This document shows positions 1-16,188 of a stretch of 64,000 nucleotides of DNA, in pieces (the first letter of the stretch is position 1; each line of letters opens with the position of its first letter). Source of the stretch: an uncultured Trichococcus sp. (GTDB lineage Bacteria; Bacillota; Bacilli; Lactobacillales; Aerococcaceae). A model generated the notes under the pieces. It was not told the DNA's origin and did not search any database. It saw only the letters and a list, made by a program, of their open reading frames with translations. The position numbers were made by a program, and so were the translations under genes. Where the stretch lies: contig NZ_OY764015.1 in the NCBI RefSeq assembly GCF_963667775.1, positions 433,501 to 497,500 of the forward strand. The letters are read 5' to 3'.

Positions 1-1689
1 TTAAGCGATGAGCATTTAACACCAGACCAAATTGCTGAAAAATTAAATGTTGTTAGTCGCGTTGATTTCATCATAGAGAGAATGAACTTCTATGGTCATG
101 ATGGTCCTAAACGAAAAGCACTCGGTTTCTGTATCACAAAGAAACATGCTGAATTCATGGCGGCTGAGTTTAACAAACGCGGCATTCCAAGTGCATACTT
201 GACTGGAGAAGACTCAGAAGAAGAGCGGATGCGTCAAATCCAACTGCTTGAGAGCGACACGGATACGTTAAATGTCATCTTTACAGTTGATATTTTTAAC
301 GAAGGTATTGATATTCCGAGTGTGAATACCGTTTTGATGCTGCGCCCAACTGAATCAGCGATTGTATTTACCCAACAACTGGGTCGTGGCTTGCGTAAAG
401 CGGAGCAAAAAGAATTTCTAACCGTCCTAGATTTTATTGGGAACTACAGCAAGTCATTTTTGATTGCCATAGCGCTTTATGGCTCACGTTCGGTGACGAA
501 GAAAGAAATCACCCATGCCGTTCGTAAAGGCTTCAGAAATATTCCGGGTCCAACTAATATTCGGATGGACGAAATTGCGAAGGATCAAATTCTAGAACAA
601 TTAGAAAATGAAAACTTCTATGCTCTAAAGTATTTAATTGAAGATTACCAAACTTTTAAAGGCGCCTTGGCAGGGAAAGTTCCGTACCGTCTTCAAGATT
701 ATTTGACGTTAGAAGGTGCGCCGGATCCGGTGTTGTTCTTTAGTAAATCTGTTAAGACTACCAAATCAGATAACTACATTGCATTTTTACAAAAGGTAGA
801 AAAGGATAACACATTGGTTCAAAAATTAGCTTCTAATAAGAGCTTCATGAGGATTTATACTAAGCTACAGAGTTATTTACCTTTGAAACGTCCACATGAG
901 TTTGCTATTTTAGAACTGTGTTTTGATCAAGAACGATTTACTAAAGAAGAAGCCATCCTACAAGTAAATCGCTATGTAGATGGCGATCAAACAGATGATA
1001 CGGCGCATGCGTTAGAGACCTTTAACCTTAATTACGCGGATAAGAATGAAATTAATGGCATTAAGATTGTTAAAAACGTTGAAGGTAATCTTTATGCTTT
1101 TAACAAAGAATTACTCACTTGTTTAGAAGATGAAGAAGCAGGTCCGTTTCTTAGTGATGCTATCCATTACGGTTTGATGCGTTACAAAAATGAGTTCGGT
1201 CATAAGAACTTGGGATATCCATTCTTGCAACTCTACAGTGAGTATTCGCAACGAGAAGTCGGGATGATGACGAACTTTCGTAATACCCATTCGTCCTTTA
1301 GGGGAAGTACTTTGCAAAATGAAATAGGCGGCGCTCATTACTTCCTATTTATCGATTTGCATAAAGAATCCGACATCGATGAAAATATCAACTACAAGGA
1401 TAAATTTATTTCGCAAAAACAATTCCAATGGGAGAGTCCTAATAATACTAAAGTGAATTCTGACCGTGGCAGGGACTTAACTCAAAATGAAGCAAATGGA
1501 AAAACCATTCACCTATTTGTGCGTAAGTATAAAACGGTGAATAATGTGACACAACGATACATGTATATTGGTCCTGCTAATGCAATTTCACATCAAAACG
1601 AGAAACCAATTGAAATTCAGTATCTATTGGAAAACAAAATGCCAATTGATCTGTATCAAGAATTTGAACCTGAGAAAGCTGTTTTTTAA
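1..1689 (+). CDS. DEAD/DEAH-box helicase with DUF3427 domain, C-terminal part
   Basis: The reading frame is open from base 1, so the N-terminal part (expected: nuclease-like region and helicase motifs I to III) lies outside the window. Visible first is the second RecA-like helicase lobe: the FTVDIFNEGIDIP stretch and the QQLGRGLRKA motif VI, whose arginines act in ATP hydrolysis. The long C-terminal part matches my recollection of the DUF3427 domain, which often follows a phospholipase-D-like nuclease in proteins of defence islands. The gene sits directly upstream of a type I restriction-modification locus on the same strand, which suggests, but does not prove, a defence role. Helicase assignment is firm; the DUF3427 name is moderately sure. 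Confidence 0.8.
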   Translation, partial: LSDEHLTPDQIAEKLNVVSRVDFIIERMNFYGHDGPKRKALGFCITKKHAEFMAAEFNKRGIPSAYLTGEDSEEERMRQIQLLESDTDTLNVIFTVDIFNEGIDIPSVNTVLMLRPTESAIVFTQQLGRGLRKAEQKEFLTVLDFIGNYSKSFLIAIALYGSRSVTKKEITHAVRKGFRNIPGPTNIRMDEIAKDQILEQLENENFYALKYLIEDYQTFKGALAGKVPYRLQDYLTLEGAPDPVLFFSKSVKTTKSDNYIAFLQKVEKDNTLVQKLASNKSFMRIYTKLQSYLPLKRPHEFAILELCFDQERFTKEEAILQVNRYVDGDQTDDTAHALETFNLNYADKNEINGIKIVKNVEGNLYAFNKELLTCLEDEEAGPFLSDAIHYGLMRYKNEFGHKNLGYPFLQLYSEYSQREVGMMTNFRNTHSSFRGSTLQNEIGGAHYFLFIDLHKESDIDENINYKDKFISQKQFQWESPNNTKVNSDRGRDLTQNEANGKTIHLFVRKYKTVNNVTQRYMYIGPANAISHQNEKPIEIQYLLENKMPIDLYQEFEPEKAVF

Positions 1690-1946: not shown

Positions 1947-3533
1947 ATGGGAGCTGAACTAAATCAGAAGCTGTTTAGCGCTGCAGACAATCTGCGCAGC
2001 AAGATGGATGCGTCTGAATATAAAAACTATTTACTAGGGTTGATTTTCTACAAATATCTCTCAGATAAACTTTTGGAAAAAGTTGTTGAATTAGCTGGTG
2101 AGTCATTGGATGAATTTTCCAATGCGGATAAGCAGACGGTTTTGTATCGTCAGCTACTTGAAGATGAAGATACAAAGAGCGATTTGATCGAAACGTTAGT
2201 CGATACTCTTGGCTATGATATTGCAGCGGATCATTTATTCAATGTTTTGACGATGCAAGCAAATCAGAATACATTCCAACTAAACGACTTAAATAAAGCA
2301 TTCATTGACTTGTCCACTAAATACAATCAATTTAGCGGGTTATTCGATGATGTCGATCTAAAATCAAAAAAACTGGGTGCAGACGATCAGCAACGTAATG
2401 TTACCATCACTGAAGTGTTGAAAAAACTAAACGGCATTGATGTGCTTGGACATAACGGTGACGTTATTGGCGATGCCTATGAATTTTTGATCAGTCAATT
2501 TGCCTCCGAAGCAGGGAAGAAGGCCGGAGAGTTTTACACGCCTCATGAAGTTTCGGATATGATGGCAAGGATTGCTGCTATTGGGCAAGAGGATAAGAAA
2601 TTGTTCAGCGTATTTGATCCTACGATGGGATCCGGTTCTTTAATGCTCAACATCCGGAATTATTTGAATTATCCGAAAAGCGTGAAATATCATGGTCAAG
2701 AGTTGAATACGACAACGTTTAACTTGGCCAAAATGAATTTAATTTTGCATGGAGTTGACAATGAGGATATTCGTCTGCGCAACGGAGATACCTTGAATAA
2801 GGACTGGCCAACAGACGAACCATACACGTTTGACTCCGTGGTAATGAATCCGCCATATTCTGCTAAATGGTCTTCAGATGACACGTTTCTGGATGATTCA
2901 CGGTTTAATCGTTACGGCAAATTAGCGCCGAAATCAAAAGCAGACTTCGCGTTCTTGTTGCATGGTTTCTACCATTTAAAAGATTCCGGAACGATGGCAA
3001 TTGTATTGCCACATGGAGTCCTGTTCCGTGGTGCTGCTGAAGGTGTCATTCGTAAAAAGTTACTGGAAGATGGGAGTATTGACACAGTTATTGGAATGCC
3101 AGCGAACTTGTTCTTTGGAACATCGATCCCTACGACTGTCATCATTTTGAAGAAAAACCGGACTACTCGAGATGTTTTATTCATTGACGCAAGCAAGGAT
3201 TTCATTAAAGGGAAAAATCAGAATAAGCTATCGCAAGAAAACATCGACAGAATTGTTGAAACCTACAAAAAACGTGAGGATGTTGAGAAGTTTGCGCACG
3301 TCGCAAGTTTTGAGCAGATCCAAGAAAATGATTTCAACTTAAATATTCCTCGTTATGTCGATACATTTGAAGAACAAGAAGAAGTTGATATTGTTGAACT
3401 CGGGAAAGAGCTTGTAGCCCTCAATCAACAAATCAAAGCAGCCGAAAATGACTTCCTTTCAATGCTGGATGAATTGGCGGTAACAGACGAGACGCGCGAT
3501 ATTATCGAAGCAACAAAGGCGGTGTTTCGGTGA
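1947..3533 (+). CDS. hsdM: Type I restriction-modification DNA methyltransferase subunit
   Basis: HsdM methylates adenine within the site chosen by HsdS and forms the M2S methylase, or the R2M2S nuclease when HsdR joins. The 528 residues show the HsdM N-terminal helical domain (about 1-140), then the Rossmann methylase domain with the SAM motif [10 protein letters not shown] near residue 226 and the catalytic NPPY motif near 300, typical of N6-adenine methylases. Length is normal for the family. The start ATG is preceded by AAAGGGG. The stop codon overlaps the hsdS start, which indicates translational coupling. Confidence 0.97.
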
Positions 3534-4720
3534 TGTCTGAGGAAGCTAAAATGGCACCGGTCATACGGTTTCAAGGATTCACTGATGATTGGGAACAGCG
3601 TAAGTTGGGTGAATTATTAATTGAGCATAATCAAATAGTAAAAGGTGACAAATATCCAATTGCAACGTCATCAAGAAAAGGATTGTTTTTGCAAACAGAT
3701 TATTTTGATGGTGAACGAAGTGGAATTAATACAACTATGGATTTTCACTTAGTCCCAGAGAACTATCTAACGTATAGGCATATGTCCGATGACTCGATTT
3801 TTCATTTTAATAAAAACACTATGGGTACACCTATTCTAGTGAGTAAAGAATATCCAGTGTTTACAACTTCGGAAGCTGCTAACGATGAGTTCGTTATAAG
3901 AAATTTGAACTTTTCCAAGAGTTTCGCGAATTTTTCCCACATGCAGAAAAAAGGAGGCACTAGGGTTAGGTTGTATTTTAAAGTACTGCAAAACTATAAA
4001 ATTGCTATCCCTAGAATTGATGAACAGATAAAAATTGGATCACTCTTGAAGCATCTAGACAGAACTATCGCTCTTCATCAACGAAAGTTAACCTTATTAA
4101 AGCAGCTAAAACAAACGTATTTGAAGCAGATTTTCTCGCAAAATAAGGAGAATATACCGGTGCTAAGATTTGCAGGTTTTTCTGAACCATGGGAACAGCG
4201 TAAATTTTCTAATATAGTAAACAGAGTGTCCCAACAATCTAATGATTCCAATCTTCCAAAAGTCGAATTTGAAGATATTATTTCTGGTGAAGGTAGGTTG
4301 AATAAAGATATTTCTCGTAAGTTTGACAGTAGAAAAGGGACAGCTTTTGAACCTGAATTTATTTTATATGGTAAGTTACGCCCATACTTAAAGAACTGGC
4401 TATTTCCCAGTTTTAAGGGGATAGCATTAGGTGATTTCTGGGTTTTTGAGCCGAATAATTCGTCTTCTATTTTTGATTATTACTTGATTCAATCTGACAA
4501 ATATCAAGCAGTTGCAAATCTTTCTTCAGGAACGAAAATGCCTCGTTCTGATTGGAAGACTGTTTCAGAAACAGTTTATAGTATTCCTGACAGTATTAAT
4601 GAGCAAGAAAAAATAGGTACCTTTTTTAATCAGCTTGATAATGTTATTGCTCTTCATCAAGAAAAGATTGCTCATCTAAAAGCACTGAAAAGTATATTAC
4701 TCAACAAAATGTTCATTTAA
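3530..4720 (+). CDS. hsdS: Type I restriction-modification specificity subunit, expressed copy
   Basis: HsdS recognises the two halves of the bipartite DNA target and bridges two HsdM subunits. The protein has two target recognition domains, about residues 20-150 and 225-350. Each is preceded by a WEQRK motif and followed by a conserved helix ([19 protein letters not shown] in the centre, [15 protein letters not shown] at the end). GTG at 3530 or ATG at 3533 can start it; both overlap the hsdM stop. Three stretches of the gene are repeated exactly, inverted, in the second hsdS copy at 8029-9231, so the gene body can be exchanged by inversion. A terminator follows immediately. Confidence 0.95.
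3587..3606 (+). repeat. Inverted repeat A, left arm (20 bp)
   Basis: This arm codes for the DWEQRK motif at the start of HsdS and is the exact reverse complement of 9212-9231. Recombination here would swap both recognition domains onto the expressed hsdS start. Confidence 0.85.
4064..4125 (+). repeat. Inverted repeat B, left arm (62 bp)
   Basis: It codes for the central conserved helix of HsdS and is identical, inverted, to 8654-8715. This is the longest repeat of the locus. Inversion across it would exchange only the second recognition domain. Perfect identity over 62 bases, between coding regions that otherwise differ, suggests recent recombination. Confidence 0.95.
4177..4200 (+). repeat. 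Inverted repeat C, left arm (24 bp)
   Basis: It codes for FSEPWEQR at the start of the second recognition domain and is the exact reverse complement of 8579-8602. Between repeats B and C the two hsdS copies are similar but not identical. Confidence 0.85.
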
Positions 4721-4745
4721 AAAGGCACACGAGGTGCCTTTTTGT
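4719..4745. terminator. Bidirectional terminator between hsdS and the recombinase
   Basis: AAAAGGCAC and GTGCCTTTT pair around a short loop. Poly-A on one side and poly-T on the other let it end both hsdS (plus) and the convergent recombinase gene (minus). Confidence 0.8.
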
Positions 4746-4750
4746 TTAAC

Positions 4751-5479
4751 TTACATCAGTAACGCCAAGTGTTTCATGATCTTGTCGTTGTCTTGATTTT
4801 CGAGTTCTTGAATAATGTGGAGATACGTTTCTTGTGTGGTAGTCATGCTCGAATGTCCCAATCTAGTAGCTACACTTGCAATTGAAACGCCAGCAAAAAG
4901 TAATAAGGATGCATGTGTATGTCTAAGGCTATGAATAGTGATGATTGGAATATTTGCATTTGTGCAAAGGACCTTCAGGCGATAATTGATTGTTGAATTG
5001 AATACCCTGTTCTTCACAAAAATTGGTTTTTCAGGATCTAAATTCTTGATCAGCTGCGAAAATTGCATCGCAGTTTGCCAATCAATTTGCATCGTTCGTT
5101 TTGAGGATTCATTCTTCGTAGGTTGAAAGTTCCCTGTAGTACCCTTGTAGTTCCAGGTTTTTGTAATGCTTAGCTTTTGCTTGGAAAAATCGAAATCATT
5201 TGGAGTAAGTGCAAGAGCTTCAGAAAAACGCAACCCTGTTTTTGCCACCAATAAGATAAACCAATCCCAATTTATTTCAGAGGGTAGTTCCAGTTGTCTA
5301 AGTAGCGCTTGAATTTCAAATTGGTTTAGAAATTTCGTTCGCTTATCCTTAGGCTTTTTACCTTTTATGATGATTTTTCGCGTGGGATTTGTAGTAATAA
5401 GTCCCTCATCAACTGCATCCAGTATTGCGCCTTTTAATTGATGGTGAAAATCCATTGTGGTTTGTTTTTCGTGGGTAAG
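4751..5479 (-). pseudogene. Tyrosine recombinase, C-terminal part, split by IS21
   Basis: This is the catalytic part of a phage-integrase-type tyrosine recombinase, about 240 residues in the native frame. The signature HSLRHTHASLLL carries the conserved R and H, LGHS carries the second His, and TYLHI near the end carries the catalytic Tyr; the first Arg is in the TGLRFSEAL motif. The N-terminal part lies at 7745-7945. Removing the IS and one copy of the GGTAAG duplication restores one frame (NDYALT joined to HEKQTT) of about 309 residues. Recombinases between inverted hsdS genes in other Firmicutes drive specificity switching. In the interrupted gene this part has no start of its own; a short IS-encoded leader is in frame with it, so a truncated product is conceivable. 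Confidence 0.93.
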
Positions 5480-5609
5480 TGTCAACACCGGTTCAAAAAT
5501 GTTGTTTTTCACCGGTTTAAAAAATGTCGTTTTTCAGCGGTCAGACGATGTTGCTTTTCACCGGCTTCTGCCGAAAAACAACGGGGGACTGTCTTTTTTC
5601 ACCGGTCGA

Positions 5610-6392
5610 TCACGGAGGATCGTCCGGTGTTTTTTTCTTGGAACGCTGCTCGCGTTCCAGCTTGTAGTCTTTCATGCGATATGAGTTTCCGGTGATCTGG
5701 AATACTCTGGAATGGTGGATCAGGCGGTCAAGAATGGCTGCTGTCACGGCGCTGTCCTGAAAAACGTCTCCCCATTTGGAAAAGGGAATGTTAGTCGTCA
5801 GGATGGTGGAATGCACCTCGTGCCTCAACCGGATCAGTTGGAAGAGGAGACTGGCCTCTTGTTTGGCAATAGGCAGGTAGCCGATTTCATCGATGATTAG
5901 GAGCTCGTAGTTCGAATAACGTTTTAAAACCCGTTCGAGTGTTCCTTTTTCATAAGCTGATTGGAGCTTTTGGATCAGCTCATGACAGTTGATGAATATG
6001 GCCTTAACGCCTTGATGGCAGGCTTCCACGCCGAGGGCAGTCGCCAAATGCGTTTTCCCGACACCTGAATTACCGATGAATATAATATTTTCGGCTTTTT
6101 CAAGAAAGCCCATGTGCTGCAGATCCAGAATTTCATGCCGGTTGATGCTTGGCTGAAAGTAGAAATCGAAGTCTTTGAGTGCACGAATGACCGGAAACCG
6201 CGCGTTTTCTACAGCACGCTCCACTTTCCGATCGGACCGAAACGCCAGCTCTCGATTGGTTAATTCCAGTAGGGCTTCCGTGAAGGGAATCGCTTCGCGG
6301 TTTACGACTTCCTGGTAGTTGGGGAAGTATTCCCGCATCCGAAGCAGACCGAGTTTTTCAAAATTATTGAGGAGTTGGACATGGTTACTCAT
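5610..6392 (-). CDS. istB: IS21 helper ATPase
   Basis: IstB is the AAA+ ATPase that helps the IS21 transposase choose a target and assemble on DNA. The 260 residues have a DnaC-like fold with Walker A GNSGVGKTHLA near residue 107 and Walker B LLIIDEIGYL near 168. It follows istA by 11 bases in one operon. It appears intact, so the element may still be mobile. Confidence 0.95.
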   Translation of the reverse strand: MSNHVQLLNNFEKLGLLRMREYFPNYQEVVNREAIPFTEALLELTNRELAFRSDRKVERAVENARFPVIRALKDFDFYFQPSINRHEILDLQHMGFLEKAENIIFIGNSGVGKTHLATALGVEACHQGVKAIFINCHELIQKLQSAYEKGTLERVLKRYSNYELLIIDEIGYLPIAKQEASLLFQLIRLRHEVHSTILTTNIPFSKWGDVFQDSAVTAAILDRLIHHSRVFQITGNSYRMKDYKLEREQRSKKKTPDDPP

Positions 6393-6403
6393 TGCAGCAC
6401 CTC

Positions 6404-7627
6404 CTACACATCATCATACTGCGCCAAAGAATTTTCAATGAACGCATAGATTTCTTCGTCCTCTTTATGCTTAAACACATCAGACTTCAAAATCTCGTAG
6501 GCGTCATGAGTGTCGTACGTATAGGATCGCTTTTTTTCACTAATCGGATGCGTTTGAATCAATTCTCCATTATAATAAATGTGTATGAATGCGGTAGTGA
6601 GTCGAATTTCGACTTCCTCGCCGATATATTTAATGGGAACGGAGTACTTACTCGTTCGAAATTGGACCATGGATTCTGTGCTGACGATACGGCGAATATC
6701 GTCACAACTGTATTCAGCCAACAGTTCAAAATCGAATGCCTGTAGGTGCTCTTTTTCGTGTTCCCATAAGTCGATTGGCCGTTGGCCTGTCGCTTGGGAA
6801 ACCTCATAATTGAGCTCTTCGGCTAAATCATGGACGTAGTGACATAACTCGAGCTCATCATCAAATTCGCCATTCATAACGCGCAACCGTTCGCAGGTTC
6901 TTGCCAAAGCCTCCACTTTTCCTTTTGTCTGAGGCCGGAACGGACGACAAGCGATAGGCTGAAAACTGGCATCCTTACTGAAGGCGTAGAAGGTGTCGTG
7001 GAAGACGACCTTTTTGTATTGGGATTTGGCATGATTGACCACTGTTTTCATATTGTCGAACCAGATTTCCCTGGGTACACCGCCGGTTAAATAAAAGGCA
7101 TCGTTTAAGCACATGAATAACGTATCTTGCTTTTTCTCAAAAGTCAGTTCCAAATATTTCATGCGTGAATAACCCAGCACGTACAAGAAGATATTGAATG
7201 TGACGGGCCGCCCGGAACTCGTGTAAAGGGTCATATTCTCCTTCCAATCCACTTGCGCCGACAGACCAGGGTTCGTTTCAATTCGAATTGTTGCCTTCTT
7301 GGTTTTTGTTTGTTTCAGTGTTCGGCAATAGTCCCGAAGAATCGTGATTTTTCCTTCGTATCCTCGCCGTTTAAGGAGCGAATAAATCGCCGTAGCGGAA
7401 CAGCCTTCCGAAACCTTTTCGTCAATCAGGGTCCGATAAGGATCCAATTTACTGGCTTTCTCCGGCACGGGTTTCCTGGGCTTAATCAACTCAGGATTCT
7501 GTTGTTCCTCAAAGTGTTTTTTAATGGTACGTGGATCACTGTCGTATTGACGTGCCATCTGTGCAAAATTTGGTTTGATGTCGTTCATAATGTAGAACCT
7601 CACTCCTTCTCGAATATCTTTTCTCAT
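6404..7627 (-). CDS. istA: IS21 transposase
   Basis: IstA is the DDE-type transposase of IS21. After an N-terminal HTH region (QMARQYDSDPRTIKKHF) comes the rve integrase core; one catalytic Asp is in QVDWKE and the conserved GVPREIWFDNMKT carries the next; the FRPQTKGKVE segment carries the Glu. The chosen ATG at 7627 follows AAGGAGG with normal spacing; a longer version from 7672 would include the ribosome binding site. About 407 residues, normal for the family. Confidence 0.95.
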   Translation of the reverse strand: MRKDIREGVRFYIMNDIKPNFAQMARQYDSDPRTIKKHFEEQQNPELIKPRKPVPEKASKLDPYRTLIDEKVSEGCSATAIYSLLKRRGYEGKITILRDYCRTLKQTKTKKATIRIETNPGLSAQVDWKENMTLYTSSGRPVTFNIFLYVLGYSRMKYLELTFEKKQDTLFMCLNDAFYLTGGVPREIWFDNMKTVVNHAKSQYKKVVFHDTFYAFSKDASFQPIACRPFRPQTKGKVEALARTCERLRVMNGEFDDELELCHYVHDLAEELNYEVSQATGQRPIDLWEHEKEHLQAFDFELLAEYSCDDIRRIVSTESMVQFRTSKYSVPIKYIGEEVEIRLTTAFIHIYYNGELIQTHPISEKKRSYTYDTHDAYEILKSDVFKHKEDEEIYAFIENSLAQYDDV

Positions 7628-7744
7628 GCTCATTACCTCCTTGTGTAGATGAGATGAAATAAGTATATTCAAAAAAATGTATGATTTCCGACATTTTTCA
7701 AACCGTTGTTTTCCTACATTTTACTACCGGCGTTAACAGGTAAG

Positions 7745-7945
7745 TGCATAGTCATTCAACAGCTGCTGGTATTTCCGTCTGTCTATCTCCCCAACTTTTA
7801 AACTAGGCGCTAGTTCATACACTCGTTGGAGGGACATATTATATTTACTCAACGTTACGGACCGCACAGCCCCAACCTTGTATAATTCAATCCATTCCTC
7901 GAAATACTCATAGAACAGTTGATCTGACTTCCTTTTTCTAACCAA
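7745..7945 (-). pseudogene. Tyrosine recombinase, N-terminal part, split by IS21
   Basis: This codes for the first ~69 residues (FEEWIELYKVGAVRSVTLSK is the arm/core-binding domain pattern) and now runs into a stop 8 bases inside the IS. The start is TTG at 7945, preceded by AGGAGGT at 7-base spacing; no ATG is available. The gene is convergent with hsdS and follows the inverted hsdS copy. Together with 4751-5479 it gives a normal-length recombinase if the IS is removed. Confidence 0.9.
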
Positions 7946-7952
7946 AATAAAG

Positions 7953-8004
7953 ACCTCCTGATAATAAATTTGATGAACATGTCATCACTTTATTATCAGG
8001 AGGT
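7953..8004 (-). promoter_or_regulatory. Long hairpin burying the recombinase ribosome binding site
   Basis: A perfect 16-bp inverted repeat (7953-7968 with 7989-8004) extends inward with a further 6-bp pair, TGATGA with TCATCA, so about 22 base pairs can form. On the minus strand the 3' arm contains AGGAGGT, the ribosome binding site of the TTG-start recombinase. Any transcript reading in from the inverted hsdS would hide this site. It may restrict recombinase translation, or it may simply end the hsdS transcript, although there is no good U tract. Confidence 0.7.
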
Positions 8005-8028
8005 TTGTCAGTAACTGCAAAAATAAGG

Positions 8029-9231
8029 CTATAAGAACATCTTTGCTAGTAGGACTTTTTTAAGTACTGTTAAATTCTTAATCTTATATTGATGAAGGGT
8101 GATAGTATCATCGAGTTTTCTGAAAAAACTACCAATATGAATTTGTTCTTCTATCCTAGGCATAAGTATAGGCATTTTTGCCATTTGTTTACCTGACACT
8201 TCTATAAAAGTTGATCCTGCTCCATTTAATTCTCCATATCGTTTCAATTCATGGGTTCTGGAATAAATAAAATAAGAATCCAGTTCATTTTCATGGGGAA
8301 TAATCGATTGAAAGCCTTGATTTGTTGCCCCTTCTTTAGCAAGAATAGCAGTATTACCAATTCCTGCACGAGATGTAAATAAAACTGTTCCAATCGGAAA
8401 AATTTTAGCAGAGCTTTTTTGTAGACCGGCCTCTGTAATTTTCTTTTGACTATCATTTACAAAGATTTGGTTTCCAATTTCAGCAGGGGAATACCAGTCG
8501 ATATTCCCATTCCAATAATAGTCATTGCTGGTGCTGGGGGTTCCACCACCGACTATGTCCGATATTTCACCTAGCTTTCGCTGTTCCCATGGTTCAGAAA
8601 AATCCGCAAATCTTAGTACTGGCATATTCTCCTCTTTTTGCGGGAACATCCGGTTCAAATACGTTTGTTTTAGCTGCTTTAATAAGGTTAACTTTCGTTG
8701 ATGAAGAGCGATAGTACTGTCTAACTGTTTGAAGAATAAACCAATCTTCTCCTGTTCATATAGATTTTTAGGAACTATAACTTTCAATCCTGATAGGGAC
8801 CTTTGACTAACTCCTTTTGCAGTACCACCACTTGATAAAGCAGATAAATCATTGAATACATTTGGCGAACGTAATAAAACTGCCAAAAAATCATCGGTAA
8901 TTTTTTCATCATTTACATCAAATGTGATTGTTCTTTGACTAAGGATGTATCCTTGATTATCAGGCACTTGAGCTACATTACCCATAGGCGCTTCTGTCGT
9001 AAATAAGACTTGCCCCTTTCTTAGCTCTCTACCACCCATCCATTTCTGATATAACTCTTCATTACCGTAATGCGCATCTGCTGAGGGGTCAATGTATCCA
9101 TTTTTTACATTCAAAGCAGAAAGTGCAAGGTATCCTGATTCACTCCAGTCCATTCCCAATTTCTTTGGAGTTCTTCCCCTAAAATCGATTGTGTTTTGTA
9201 TGTTATCAAAAAACTTACGCTGTTCCCAATC
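8029..9231 (-). CDS. hsdS: Second, silent hsdS cassette lacking a start codon
   Basis: The frame begins with DWEQRK at 9231 and is open above that, but contains no ATG, GTG or TTG there; the first ATG is internal at 9159. It ends normally (KKVLLAKMFL). It has two recognition domains that differ from those of the expressed hsdS, separated by the shared [19 protein letters not shown] helix. The design fits a silent store of recognition domains, expressed only after inversion joins it to the hsdS start at 3530. It is bordered by the hsdR promoter on one side and the recombinase gene on the other. Confidence 0.9.
   Translation of the reverse strand, partial: DWEQRKFFDNIQNTIDFRGRTPKKLGMDWSESGYLALSALNVKNGYIDPSADAHYGNEELYQKWMGGRELRKGQVLFTTEAPMGNVAQVPDNQGYILSQRTITFDVNDEKITDDFLAVLLRSPNVFNDLSALSSGGTAKGVSQRSLSGLKVIVPKNLYEQEKIGLFFKQLDSTIALHQRKLTLLKQLKQTYLNRMFPQKEENMPVLRFADFSEPWEQRKLGEISDIVGGGTPSTSNDYYWNGNIDWYSPAEIGNQIFVNDSQKKITEAGLQKSSAKIFPIGTVLFTSRAGIGNTAILAKEGATNQGFQSIIPHENELDSYFIYSRTHELKRYGELNGAGSTFIEVSGKQMAKMPILMPRIEEQIHIGSFFRKLDDTITLHQYKIKNLTVLKKVLLAKMFL
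8579..8602 (-). repeat. Inverted repeat C, right arm (24 bp)
   Basis: Exact reverse complement of 4177-4200, in the silent cassette before its second recognition domain. Confidence 0.85.
8654..8715 (-). repeat. Inverted repeat B, right arm (62 bp)
   Basis: Exact reverse complement of 4064-4125, in the central conserved helix of the silent cassette. Confidence 0.95.
9212..9231 (-). repeat. Inverted repeat A, right arm (20 bp)
   Basis: Exact reverse complement of 3587-3606; similarity to the expressed hsdS stops at its outer edge, which marks the boundary of the invertible segment. Confidence 0.85.
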
Positions 9232-9269
9232 GCAATTTATCAGAAATTCAACATTAAATAAAACAATCG

Positions 9270-9278
9270 TGATATAAT
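9270..9278 (+). promoter_or_regulatory. Extended -10 promoter of hsdR
   Basis: TGATATAAT is a perfect extended -10 with a poor -35, as for hsdM. It lies just outside the invertible segment, so hsdR expression should not depend on orientation. Confidence 0.6.
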
Positions 9279-9329
9279 TTAATAGATAATTTGTGGGGGA
9301 ATTAAGTATATAGCTTAGGTGGGAAGATT

Positions 9330-12300
9330 ATGTGCAAAATTCCAAGAAATGATGAGGAAACAATTGAAAAACATTTGATTGACGTTCTGGGTCAAGGACA
9401 TAATCAGTGGAACTATCGCGAGGATCTGAAGTCTGAAGAGGACCTATGGCGGAATTTGCGTCAAAAAATTACCCAAAATAACTTGTCTGAAATCAAGGAA
9501 CATCCGATTACGGATAAAGAATTTGATTCGATAAAAATGGAGTTATTAACACATACGAAAACGCCTTTTCATGCTGCCAAATGGCTGAAGGGCGAAAATG
9601 GCATTGCGCGTATCACAATTGAGCGTGAGGATGCTTCTTTAGGTGCCATGTCTTTGATCTTGTATTCCAATCAAGATATCGGCGGAGGTATTTCCACTTA
9701 TGAAGTTGTAAATCAGATTGCCAAGAAAAAATCGGATGATGAGCGAGAGCGGCGATTTGACGTAACGTTGTTGATCAATGGGTTGCCGATTGTGCAGATT
9801 GAGTTGAAACAAGCAGGTGCAAAAGACGGTTATTTTCAGGCTTTTAATCAAATTAAAAAATATGCTGAAGAAGGCATGTTCCGCAATAACATCTTTTCGA
9901 CGTTGCAGCTTTTTGTCGTTTCCAATGAAAAGACAACCCGTTATTTTGCGAATGCGCTACCAAAAGACATGCACAGGAAATTTCTTTTCAGTTGGCGGAC
10001 AACCGATAATCGGAAAGTGGATAATGTTTACGAGTTTTGCAAACAGGTTTTGAACATACCGGATGCCCATAAGTTAATTGCGCACTATACGATTGTCAGT
10101 GAGGATCATGATAATAAAGCCCTAATGGTATTGCATCCTTACCAAATCCACGCGATTGAAGCTCTATTTACATCTGCTATGAAGCACGAATCGGGTTATG
10201 TTTGGCATGCAACAGGATCAGGGAAAACGTTGACAAGTTTTGTAGCGACGAAATTGCTTGCCCGCAAGTCTGGTGTTGATAGAACCATCATGGTCATTGA
10301 CAGGAAAGACTTGGACAGCCAGACTACATCAGAATTCACAAAGTTTGCCTCTGAATTTAATACAGGCATATCTTCTGGAAACGTTCGAGCGAATAGTTTG
10401 ATTGTGGGGACTGGCAGCTCGATTGAACTCAGCCGAGCTTTGTTGTCGGATACGAATAATAACACAGTCATCATCACGACTCGCCAAAAACTGGAGGCCG
10501 CATTGCGCCATGCCCAAAAGCAAAAGGAGAAACGAAATGTGGAACGATTCAAAAAGTTGATGGGCCAGCATATCGTCTTTGTCGTGGATGAATGCCACCG
10601 TGCTTTGAGTGCGGAAAATATGGATGAAATAAAGCAGTTCTTCCCGAATTCCACTTGGTTCGGATTTACTGGGACACCTATTTTTGAAGAGAATAAAAAG
10701 CAAGCCAAAGGGCAATTGGCCAGAACGACGCACGACCAATATGGCGAGAAATTGCATACTTACACGATTAAAGATGCTTTGGACGATGCTGCGGTTCTGG
10801 GATTTCAGGTGGAACATGAGGATACGATAGAACAGACCTCTTTAAACAATCACATTTTCAAAAACCTCCAAGTCAATGAAAAATATGCAAGCTACAGCGT
10901 AGATGGCATTAATGACATAATCGATCAGATGCCGCCGAATGAAAAAGAAGAGTATTTGGATGCAACGATCTATGAACGGAACGAGCATATTCAAAAGGTG
11001 CTACGTAAAATTTTCCGACCGGATAACGCCTATATGAAATTTGATTTTCAGAATGGCCGTCCGAGAAAGTCAGCGATTCTGACGACTAGTTCGATCGATA
11101 TGGCAAAACGGTATTATCATGCCATCAAGCAAATGACGAAGGAACCAGGCTGGATTCAAAGAGAATTTTCTCACCATCCGATCCGGACAGGTCGCACGAT
11201 TGAAGACCCAGATTTTCCAAGAATCGCGATTACCTATTCTATGCAGGAAAATGAAGTGGATTCAGCCCAAAATCAAAAAGAAATGAAAAAAATTATCAAG
11301 GATTACAATGCGTACTACGGTACTGCTTGGGGCATCGATGACATTGACCGCTATAACGGGGACATCAATAACCGGCTCGCGCGCAAAAAAGGAGAATTCA
11401 AAGAATTCGGGAAACAGATTGACTTGGTTATCGTCGTTGATAGATTGCTGACGGGGTTCGATGCGCCGACGATTCAGACCTTATTTGTTGACCGGAATCT
11501 TAGCTATGCCAACTTGATTCAAGCCTTTTCGCGTACGAATCGTACCTACCCGGATAAAACGAAAGGCTTGATCGTCACTTTCCGGAAGCCACACTCCATG
11601 GAAAAAAATGTTGCAGATGCAACAAGACTCTATTCCGAAGCTAAAGAAGAAACCAGTCTGATTTATCCGACTTATGAAAAATCGAAGAAGAGATTCAATG
11701 GCGGTCATAAGAAGTTCACTGACATCGTTGAAACACATCAGGATATAGATGAGCACTCTCCGTTGGAATTGAGGATTGATTTTGTCAAAGCATTTCAGGA
11801 ATTCACGAATTCGTTTGAGGCGCTTGTTACATATGATGATTATAACGATGAGATGGAAAAATCAGGTAGTTTGAAGACGCAAGTGATGGTACTGGAAGAG
11901 AATTTAGGATTGTATGAGACGATTAAAGGGTCAATACTTGCAGATTTGTCTATCGCACCGACTCCTCCAGAAAGCCTGTCCGAAATTGAATTCTATTCAG
12001 ACAATGCGGTTAAACTTTATGATATCGACGCTACCTATATCGATCAGCTGTTGAACACGTACTCCGCAAACAACAAATCTGTGCGTGAAGACATTGAAAA
12101 AGCGATGCAGAAGTTGAACAAAGCAGAGGTTGTAAGGGAAGTTTATCGCGCAATTTTGAACGATATCGACTTAAAACGAGTTGATCCAGAGGAAGATATA
12201 TTTGTTCTCAAACGGCATTACTTTACTCTAGCACGAGATCAGTCTATCGCTCATTTTGCGAAGGATTGGTTTGTTTCACCTGATGAATTACATTCCTCGG

Positions 12301-12488
12301 CAGTACAGTATGTTATCGGGGCAGACCCGATTCCAAACATAGGTAGTATCATCGACAGCAAAAACTTTGAAAAATACAAGGTAGTGCACCCCGAAGCCAA
12401 ACCACTGCGATATGGTCCAGAAATGAAACGGCAGTGGCGAAAGGTATTGGACGAGGTTGTTGTGCAGTTAGATAATGAGTTAAGATGA
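9330..12488 (+). CDS. hsdR: Type I restriction endonuclease subunit
   Basis: HsdR translocates DNA with ATP and cuts it at a distance from unmethylated sites. The 1052 residues begin with the HsdR nuclease domain (IVQIELKQAG holds the E-x-K of the PD-ExK site, near residue 157). Two helicase lobes follow: Walker A HATGSGKTLTSF near 293, DECHR near 419, and a LIQAFSRTNRTYP motif VI. A long helical C-terminal region, which binds HsdM, completes it. The ATG follows GGTGGGA. It looks intact, so the nuclease should be active if HsdS is supplied. Confidence 0.96.
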   Translation: MCKIPRNDEETIEKHLIDVLGQGHNQWNYREDLKSEEDLWRNLRQKITQNNLSEIKEHPITDKEFDSIKMELLTHTKTPFHAAKWLKGENGIARITIEREDASLGAMSLILYSNQDIGGGISTYEVVNQIAKKKSDDERERRFDVTLLINGLPIVQIELKQAGAKDGYFQAFNQIKKYAEEGMFRNNIFSTLQLFVVSNEKTTRYFANALPKDMHRKFLFSWRTTDNRKVDNVYEFCKQVLNIPDAHKLIAHYTIVSEDHDNKALMVLHPYQIHAIEALFTSAMKHESGYVWHATGSGKTLTSFVATKLLARKSGVDRTIMVIDRKDLDSQTTSEFTKFASEFNTGISSGNVRANSLIVGTGSSIELSRALLSDTNNNTVIITTRQKLEAALRHAQKQKEKRNVERFKKLMGQHIVFVVDECHRALSAENMDEIKQFFPNSTWFGFTGTPIFEENKKQAKGQLARTTHDQYGEKLHTYTIKDALDDAAVLGFQVEHEDTIEQTSLNNHIFKNLQVNEKYASYSVDGINDIIDQMPPNEKEEYLDATIYERNEHIQKVLRKIFRPDNAYMKFDFQNGRPRKSAILTTSSIDMAKRYYHAIKQMTKEPGWIQREFSHHPIRTGRTIEDPDFPRIAITYSMQENEVDSAQNQKEMKKIIKDYNAYYGTAWGIDDIDRYNGDINNRLARKKGEFKEFGKQIDLVIVVDRLLTGFDAPTIQTLFVDRNLSYANLIQAFSRTNRTYPDKTKGLIVTFRKPHSMEKNVADATRLYSEAKEETSLIYPTYEKSKKRFNGGHKKFTDIVETHQDIDEHSPLELRIDFVKAFQEFTNSFEALVTYDDYNDEMEKSGSLKTQVMVLEENLGLYETIKGSILADLSIAPTPPESLSEIEFYSDNAVKLYDIDATYIDQLLNTYSANNKSVREDIEKAMQKLNKAEVVREVYRAILNDIDLKRVDPEEDIFVLKRHYFTLARDQSIAHFAKDWFVSPDELHSSAVQYVIGADPIPNIGSIIDSKNFEKYKVVHPEAKPLRYGPEMKRQWRKVLDEVVVQLDNELR

Positions 12489-14761: not shown

Positions 14762-14817
14762 CACCTCGTTATTTGGTATAGTTTAATTACCACAAAAAAA
14801 CTACCAATAGCGAGGTG
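14762..14817 (+). promoter_or_regulatory. Hairpin hiding the transposase ribosome binding site
   Basis: CACCTCGTTATTTGGTA pairs with TACCAATAGCGAGGTG, with one bulge. The 3' arm contains the GAGGTG ribosome binding site of the transposase. Such inside-end hairpins in insertion sequences limit translation from outside transcripts (known for IS10 and others); here that is inferred. Confidence 0.6.
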
Positions 14818-14826
14818 CTTATCACT

Positions 14827-16188
14827 ATGATAACCAATAATGGCCTAAATAATCAACTACCAAATTCATTACAAGCTGTATTCGAAGAACTTAAGATCCT
14901 CAAACATTTGAGAAATGCTGGAATCAAGAAAGGTTCCGGATTTTCCTGTGGGTATTTATTCCAGCTGATTTTCTGCTTCATCTTTGAAGGTAAGAATTGG
15001 TTCAGAATGCTTGAAAGCAAGAAATCCGATGGATTGCCCTGTAAGGACGCTGTCTATCGTTTTTTGAACAGTCCAACCTACAATTGGCGCCGTTTTTTAC
15101 TGTCCTTGAGTGCAGCCACAATCTCTAAAGTTAGTGTATTGACCAATCATAATCGACCAAAGGTCTTGATTATTGATGATTCTGCCTATGAGAGAAATCG
15201 CAGCAAAAAAGTAGAACTGCTTGCGCGCTGTTTTGATCATTCTTCACAGAAAATGCGCTTTTACAAAGGTTTCCGGATGCTTACACTTGGGTGGTCCGAT
15301 GGCGCCACCTTTATGCCCATCGATTTTTCCCTGTTAAGCTCAACCAAATCCAATATTAACGGGATCGATGAACGAATTGACAAGCGCACCAGCGGGTATA
15401 AAAGACGGAAAGAAGCGCTTGAGACTGCGCCATCCGCTATCCCTGGCATGATTCAACGCGCCCTAAATTCCGGTGTTGAGGCTTCATACGTCCTTATGGA
15501 CACCTGGTTCACGCAGCAACCATTGATCAAATCCATTACAGAGCAAGGGATTGATGTGATTGGAATGGTTAAAGCTACTAATCAGCGCTATTTAGTTAAC
15601 AACCAGCGGGTGGATTTGCAGCAGCTTTACAAACTGGCTACACCGACAAACCGTCGTAAAGATATCTTGCGCTCCATCCAGACAACAATGACAAACGGTG
15701 TTCCCGTAAAGGTTGTCTTCATCAGAAACCGAAACAACCACAGCCGTTGGCTGGCTATATTAAGCACGGACTGTTCTCTCACGGAACAGGAAATTGTCCG
15801 TATTTATGGCATGCGTTGGGACATTGAGGTGTTCTTCAAGGCGACAAAGTCGCTTTTGAAACTGCAGAAAGAAATGCAAGGTCGCTCATATGATTCTCTC
15901 GTCAGCCACACTACGATTGTCTTTGCGCGATATATTGTATTGTCATGGCAGAATCGATGTAATACAGACGAACGAACATTGGGTGGCATGTTTTATGAAC
16001 TGTGTGATGAATTGAAAGAACTTGATTGGGCTGTAGCATTACAGCAGTTAGTCGAAATTTTGGAGGAAGCTATAGAAAAATCATCAAAAATATTCAAAAA
16101 ATTCATCAAATGTCAACTACAGCAATGGTTTGCAAGTTTGCCCAATTATATCAAGGCTTACTTGCCTATTTTGAGCTGCGAAAGTTGA
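14827..16188 (+). CDS. IS4-family transposase
   Basis: DDE transposase of 453 residues. VLIIDDSAYERNRSKKVEL has the first Asp, YVLMDTWFTQQP the second, and YGMRWDIEVFFKATKSLLKL is the Y-(2)-R-(3)-E-(6)-K motif typical of IS4. The ATG at 14827 follows GAGGTG at 9-base spacing; the GTG at 14815 would overlap that site. The gene ends two bases before the IS end. It appears intact. Confidence 0.93.
   Translation: MITNNGLNNQLPNSLQAVFEELKILKHLRNAGIKKGSGFSCGYLFQLIFCFIFEGKNWFRMLESKKSDGLPCKDAVYRFLNSPTYNWRRFLLSLSAATISKVSVLTNHNRPKVLIIDDSAYERNRSKKVELLARCFDHSSQKMRFYKGFRMLTLGWSDGATFMPIDFSLLSSTKSNINGIDERIDKRTSGYKRRKEALETAPSAIPGMIQRALNSGVEASYVLMDTWFTQQPLIKSITEQGIDVIGMVKATNQRYLVNNQRVDLQQLYKLATPTNRRKDILRSIQTTMTNGVPVKVVFIRNRNNHSRWLAILSTDCSLTEQEIVRIYGMRWDIEVFFKATKSLLKLQKEMQGRSYDSLVSHTTIVFARYIVLSWQNRCNTDERTLGGMFYELCDELKELDWAVALQQLVEILEEAIEKSSKIFKKFIKCQLQQWFASLPNYIKAYLPILSCES

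Follow-up and report, generated by a model that had tools for sequence, protein, structure and literature searches.

A probable four-way inverting type I restriction-modification system in Trichococcus with an IS-split recombinase and a leader hairpin that may insulate recombinase supply

What remains of a switch in DNA specificity when the gene for its flipping enzyme is interrupted, and how would that gene be supplied when it lies inside the segment it inverts? Both questions are raised by a type I restriction-modification locus in a 64,000-nucleotide stretch of DNA (the window), C1:433501-497500 of a 3.3-Mb single-contig genome of the genus Trichococcus, order Lactobacillales. The nearest named matches of its methyltransferase subunit, HsdM, are those of T. 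flocculiformis DSM 2094 and T. ilyis DSM 22150 (99%) and of Trichococcus sp. K1Tr (91%). Our view, held with good confidence, is that the locus is a four-way inverting system of the SpnIII kind, with a recombinase split by an insertion sequence (IS) and a recombinase supply insulated by a hairpin. Its anatomy, the insertion, the differing orientations among relatives and the conservation of the hairpin are read from the DNA itself.

The genes follow the order hsdM (+), hsdS (+), recombinase (-), inverted hsdS' (-) and hsdR (+), as listed here.

1947..3533, plus strand: hsdM, methyltransferase subunit, 528 amino acids (PF02384, PF12161)
3530..4720, plus strand: hsdS, expressed specificity gene, 396 amino acids, two recognition domains (PF01420, two stretches)
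4718..4744, plus strand: terminator-like hairpin between hsdS and the 3' end of the recombinase (terminator scan, fold)
4751..5479, minus strand: C-terminal piece of the recombinase, residues 68-309, tyrosine-recombinase catalytic domain (PF00589; 97.9% to the T. flocculiformis protein)
5480..7738, minus strand: IS21-family element, 2,259 bp, with istA and istB, TG...CA ends and a target duplication
5610-6392, minus strand: istB (PF01695)
6404-7672, minus strand: istA (PF22483)
7739..7945, minus strand: N-terminal piece of the recombinase, residues 1-69, TTG start (97.1% to the T. flocculiformis protein)
8029..9231, minus strand: silent hsdS', which at repeat A lacks both a start codon and its own 5' end (PF01420, two stretches)
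9330..12488, plus strand: hsdR, 1052 amino acids (HSDR_N, SWI2_SNF2, EcoR124_C and others)

A first-pass annotation of this DNA had described two hsdS copies facing each other across a recombinase gene, in a gene order that it called complete. The facing copies and the order are borne out, the latter with Pfam support, whereas the recombinase is disrupted in this strain: it consists of two pieces around an IS21-family element that had gone unmentioned. In a reading frame derived by hand, in-frame ATG, GTG and TTG codons are all absent from hsdS' between 9330 and repeat A.

Measured against the 309-residue T. flocculiformis protein, the recombinase is split at codons 68-69. The element carries the features by which the IS21 family is recognised, namely istA and istB, TG...CA terminal repeats and a short target duplication, here the 6-bp GGTAAG at 5474-5479 and 7739-7744. 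Neither piece of the recombinase contains a further stop, which suggests that the insertion is probably recent. A second copy of the element elsewhere in the genome is identical across 2,259 bases and has its own 7-bp flanking duplication. Nine of 13 Trichococcus genomes, that of the window included, contain matches to the element; most of those in the other genomes are fragments, and G006 has one full-length copy (91%).

Damage to homologous recombinases was also seen elsewhere. Five have one internal stop, four of them among 119 matches found order-wide (G231:C1:694239-695162, G385:C33:3280-4182, G133:C1:126407-127246, G361:C23:72807-73694) and one among 17 in a family search (G768:C60:1431-2351). 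Loss of the flipping enzyme may thus recur, or these stops may be sequencing errors. Another homologue is divided near residue 110 across two contigs (G049:C60:351-950 and G049:C78:17673-18002), a pattern that insertion of a repeat element might produce.

The sequences at which the cassette could invert are the following.

3587..3606, plus strand: left arm of inverted repeat A, 20 bp, at the start of the first recognition domain; exact match to 9212-9231
9212..9231, minus strand: right arm of inverted repeat A, where the homology of the silent gene begins; exact match
4020..4203, plus strand: left arm of the central inverted repeat, 184 nt, 87%, holding exact repeats B (4064-4125) and C (4177-4200)
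8576..8759, minus strand: right arm of the central inverted repeat, 184 nt, 87%, holding exact repeats C (8579-8602) and B (8654-8715)

The exact inverted repeats of 20 bp (A), 62 bp (B, 4064-4125/8654-8715) and 24 bp (C, 4177-4200/8579-8602) reported earlier in the hsdS copies are confirmed. As three separate repeat pairs they do not stand, because B and C are the best-conserved stretches of a single repeat (184 nt, 87%) lying between the recognition domains, which leaves two exchange regions rather than three. By our own arithmetic, a 20-bp match between two regions roughly 1.4 and 1.7 kb long would arise by chance with a probability of about 1e-6; the exact repeats are explained by homology between the two hsdS copies. 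Repeats A and C have TGGGAACAGCG in common, which spans the WEQR codons of HsdS. Homologous loci show similar repeats: of the 45 with both hsdS genes in view, all but one contain exact inverted repeats 15 bp or longer (44 loci), TGGGAA lies inside an exact inverted repeat in 32, and a repeat at the end of target recognition domain 1 occurs together with a central repeat in 33.

Inversion at A would exchange both recognition domains of HsdS and inversion at the central repeat (B and C) the second alone, so that the two combined could yield four specificities. The four-way design proposed in the first-pass annotation fits both this anatomy and known systems (PMC7394358; here and below, statements about published work refer to the available parts of each source). 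With its recombinase disrupted, however, this strain is not expected to switch freely among four states.

How the recombinase would be supplied is suggested by the region upstream of its start, which contains two overlapping features.

7953..8004, minus strand: leader hairpin, with the Shine-Dalgarno sequence AGGAGG (7959-7954) in the 3' arm and the anti-Shine-Dalgarno sequence CCTCCT (8003-7998) in the 5' arm; -29.6 kcal/mol, z -6.95
7992..8021, minus strand: promoter-like site, TTTGCA (8021-8016), 18 nt, GATAAT (7997-7992), with the -10 within the 5' arm of the hairpin (scan; letters checked)

The predicted fold has a 16-pair stem and a 6-pair apical stem. A search with Rfam 15 over 3400-9500 found no model at the leader hairpin, its sole match being a weak one at 4591-4741.

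We looked for this hairpin ahead of homologous recombinases, counting it as present where Shine-Dalgarno pairing exceeded 0.8 and z was below -2. The homologue set came from 395 genomes of the order, 104 of which had a match at E<=1e-45, plus ten named loci. Nine of the 119 order-wide matches were left out of the leader analysis (G345, two of G049, G255:C5, G003:C32 and the second G000, G050, G119 and G315 matches), the window replaced its own record L138, L032-L034 were omitted because they duplicate G003, G004 and G011, and L056, L058, L086 and L094 were omitted as having distant integrases only. From the resulting 120 loci, 106 were classed; nine had no assignable start (the window included), four were duplicates and one was too short. 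The hairpin is found in 52 of 72 recombinases with hsdS directly upstream, comprising 37 of the 39 in the clade nearest Trichococcus and 15 of the other 33. It precedes 4 of 24 homologues with no hsdS in view (none by an hsdS profile from ten Trichococcus proteins, some stretches stopping at contig ends), 3 of 10 others and, among other gene starts that have a good Shine-Dalgarno sequence, 6 of 150.

A close recombinase between facing hsdS genes is present in 11 of the 80 loci found through HsdM (L032-L036, L051, L087, L090, L106, L109 and L111). Among the named organisms that carry the hairpin are Sporolactobacillus (L035, L036), Alkalibacterium (L051), Sporosarcina (L087), Vagococcus fluvialis (L090), Furfurilactobacillus (L106, L109) and Lactococcus formosensis (L111). 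Extra searches intended as an independent test set, one class-wide (matches at E<=1e-100 in 10 of 398 genomes) and two in families (8 of 36 and 17 of 105 at E<=1e-135), added just three genomes to the order-wide set (G682, G763, G768). The loci found later include L223, from another family, and L231, both with the hairpin by the criterion above, and L232, which has one stop inside and no assignable start.

The pairing of the hairpin is kept through sequence change. We used an alignment-free arm-swap test with fixed windows that are independent of predicted folds; an earlier version took the arm windows from each sequence's own fold, which favoured cognate arms. Among the 39 close leaders, arms pair at -19.3 kcal/mol with their own partners versus -13.8 with those of others (lowest of 5000 permutations, -15.9), and at -5.65 versus -4.36 when the Shine-Dalgarno sequence and all after it are removed (permutation minimum -5.37). 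In a less redundant set of 24, own partners give -18.3 and those of others -12.4; without the Shine-Dalgarno sequence the figures become -5.33 and -3.91, and here the cognate value does not lie below every permutation (minimum -5.44). For the 33 hsdS-adjacent leaders that are more distant, z is -7.2 (-3.0 without the Shine-Dalgarno sequence), and for the 24 leaders with no hsdS in view it is -2.1 (-1.2). In addition, 16 of the 39 leaders, chosen by eye for aligning in register, contain 16 cells changed on both sides, compared with 5.9 in shuffles, none of 500 of which came as high. When the partners are slid, pairing falls from 85.5% to at most 56.5%; the count of further pair types is no higher than in shuffles.

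The position of the promoter-like site is also shared. The best promoter-like -10 lies between the anti-Shine-Dalgarno and Shine-Dalgarno sequences in 33 of the 39 close leaders, most commonly as GATAAT (20 of 39); TTTACA is the most frequent -35 (14 of 39). Promoter scores average 9.03, versus 7.82 in shuffles. The recombinase gene, being inside the invertible segment, would follow the transcribed hsdS and the silent hsdS alternately, and would thus alter its own transcriptional surroundings at each flip. RNA started at hsdM would either stop at the hairpin or carry a hidden Shine-Dalgarno sequence, while RNA begun at the embedded promoter would start 3' of the anti-Shine-Dalgarno sequence, with the Shine-Dalgarno sequence free, and be translatable. 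Recombinase supply would in this way be low and independent of cassette orientation. On these sequence features, the hairpin probably insulates recombinase expression from the orientation of the cassette, which, if true, would explain how a species can hold its rate of switching steady. Such uncoupling would matter because, in SpnIII, creX RNA is 2.6-fold higher when the gene is co-oriented with hsdRMS (PMC6620402).

An alternative is that the hairpin serves only to terminate the upstream hsdS, the overlap with the Shine-Dalgarno sequence having no regulatory role. Together with the T-rich spacer, the stem does make the hairpin resemble an hsdS terminator: between Shine-Dalgarno sequence and start the spacer is 88% T in the 39 close leaders versus 25% in the group with no hsdS in view, as expected of a terminator tail. 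Yet a terminator needs no Shine-Dalgarno sequence in its stem, and this sequence is paired in 37 of the 39 close leaders, with the promoter-like -10 between the anti-Shine-Dalgarno and Shine-Dalgarno sequences in 33. We therefore regard termination alone as possible though rather unlikely.

Several observations weigh against an insulating hairpin. By our criterion it is lacking in 20 of the 72 hsdS-adjacent cases. A consensus terminator scan, with a loop limit of 8, makes no call at the leader hairpin. The promoter is statistically weak, reaching p<=0.05 singly in only 11 of 39 leaders, and a scan of the window finds 9 promoter-like sites versus 10.6 in shuffles. Sequence relatedness inflates permutation tests such as those above, and RNAalifold on a MAFFT alignment of the 39 close leaders found only the four-pair apical stem, the outer stem being shifted by one base between groups; the alignment-free test and the pair count took its place.

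Occurrence of the hairpin varies with the spacing of the genes. The upstream hsdS ends 41-110 nt from the recombinase in 55 of 72 loci, 49 of which have the hairpin, whereas it is found in 1 of 8 loci with a gap of at most 40 nt and in 2 of 9 with a gap above 110 nt. We give even chances to a wider proposal: many hsdS-flipping recombinases of Lactobacillales and of some related groups would form a subfamily with a conserved RNA gate that ends hsdS transcription, hides the ribosome site on read-through RNA and embeds the recombinase's own promoter, so that supply stays the same when the gene is flipped behind the hsdM promoter. Abutting loci mostly lack the gate and would have an orientation-dependent supply, and the window would hold a natural knock-out of the recombinase, reducing four states to two. 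Gated and abutting loci can be set against each other, which makes the idea of a gate directly testable.

What the broken recombinase means for switching can be predicted from pneumococcal homologues. A creX frameshift in S. pneumoniae abolished inversion at a 15-bp repeat, slightly lowered that at a 333-bp repeat (15.8% to 12.7%) and left that at an 85-bp repeat unchanged (PMC6620402), and deletion of psrA abolished inversion at IR1 and no other (PMC4948785). Because loss of CreX/PsrA abolishes short-repeat inversion only, inversion at the short 20-bp repeat A should be lost in this strain, while inversion at the central repeat may persist. The locus may accordingly reach at most two of its four states, or be frozen. 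The recombinase is common in the family yet not essential, since strains without creX still shuffle (PMC6620402). One point weighs against these predictions, namely that pneumococcal homologues may not foretell how a Trichococcus recombinase behaves.

Switching might instead still be free in this strain, through a recombinase acting in trans or through repeat exchange that is independent of the local enzyme. The 85- and 333-bp pneumococcal repeats still invert without CreX, and inversion in recA mutants shows no significant difference (PMC6620402); B, 62 bp exact within a 184-nt repeat, could act like them, and further integrases are present in the genome. Against this, the best of these other integrases is only a 35% match, and A is short (20 bp), of the kind that needed CreX. 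We consider free switching improbable and prefer a locus that has lost inversion at A. The insertion provides a natural test of which inversions require the local recombinase, a question left open by the pneumococcal work.

Relatives indicate that the cassette moves within the genus. The recombinase is present at 93% or more in 5 of 13 Trichococcus genomes searched, the window included, and in the four other carriers it is open, a 321-codon frame between hsdS and an inverted hsdS'. It is co-directed with hsdM in G003 and G011 and opposed in G004 and G010, as in the window, while the order of M and R is constant; the cassette has therefore flipped within the genus. More widely, hsdM is in view for 54 of the 72 hsdS-adjacent recombinases (17 of the rest have no hsdM match and in one hsdM is too far), and 32 of these recombinases are co-oriented with it and 22 opposed. 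That the two hsdS genes are a passive duplication without inversion is very improbable, for although orientation differences are seen between species only, Trichococcus species carry opposite cassette orientations around the same order of M and R, and both orientations are common over the 54 loci. The cassette thus flips in Trichococcus and is probably crippled in this strain. Domains also move between positions, since in K1Tr (L027 9535-10740, minus strand) the first domain of the silent hsdS is 82.7% identical over residues 12-196 to the second silent domain of the window. Exchanged versions of the window's own recognition domains were sought in the relatives and not found, most domains differing between species.

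The same genome holds a second type I specificity gene (G000:C1:1158413-1159534, L031) with two recognition domains in one open frame; large open reading frames adjoin it, and none of the genome's own recombinase matches lies beside it. Within the window, a Helicase_C and DUF3427 protein, possibly cut at the window start, is encoded upstream of hsdM (82-1689, plus strand). Just past hsdR, a SIR2-like domain protein (PF13289; 12775-14268, plus strand) is perhaps a further defence gene, and a 457-residue open reading frame at 14815-16188, plus strand, is presumably an IS4-type transposase.

In a literature search with most subscription papers outside its scope, we recognised no report of hsdS recombinases preceded by a hairpin or a Shine-Dalgarno element, except the tvr attenuator, of a disrupted or locked hsdS recombinase, or of restriction-modification in Trichococcus. 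Inverting type I loci, including four-way loci with a recombinase, are already known, for example in Streptococcus suis (REBASE survey, PMC7394358). The S. suis locus is alike in its two hsdS genes, inverted repeats, recombinase and four specificities, and neither an IS-split recombinase nor a leader hairpin is described in the available text on it; the main text of that survey does not mention Trichococcus by name. SpnD39III/Spn556II (ivr, cod) of S. pneumoniae, with CreX/PsrA, resembles the locus here in having one expressed hsdS, inverted repeats in silent hsdS sequence, a tyrosine recombinase encoded within the segment that inverts, and a core with TGGGAA; the SpnIII core is ATTATGGGAA (PMC6620402), and TGGGAA is the part that it shares with the repeats here. 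SpnIII has two silent hsdS genes and six variants, compared with one silent gene and four possible variants here, and its recombinase is not interrupted. Its creX RNA varies with orientation, an effect that the leader hairpin here would damp (the comparison concerns RNA levels, not leaders). In the phase-variable type I locus tvr (SpnIV), a terminator-like hairpin likewise stands ahead of the recombinase, and removal of this hairpin raised tvrR RNA more than 40-fold (PMC6265443). That system differs in its excision at direct repeats and its toxin-antitoxin operon, and no Shine-Dalgarno sequence in the stem or embedded promoter is described for it in the available text. The tvr attenuator is the nearest precedent for the leader hairpin. 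In transposase leaders of the IS10, IS50 and IS200 type, the ribosome site is hidden on read-through RNA and free on RNA from the transposase's own promoter. A published account of this IS10-type precedent was sought and not found, the available part of PMC8450116 holding no such description. Those leaders belong to transposons, whereas the same logic here would serve a chromosomal specificity switch; what has no counterpart in the published work covered is a Shine-Dalgarno sequence inside the stem together with an embedded promoter, whose function as a gate we infer.

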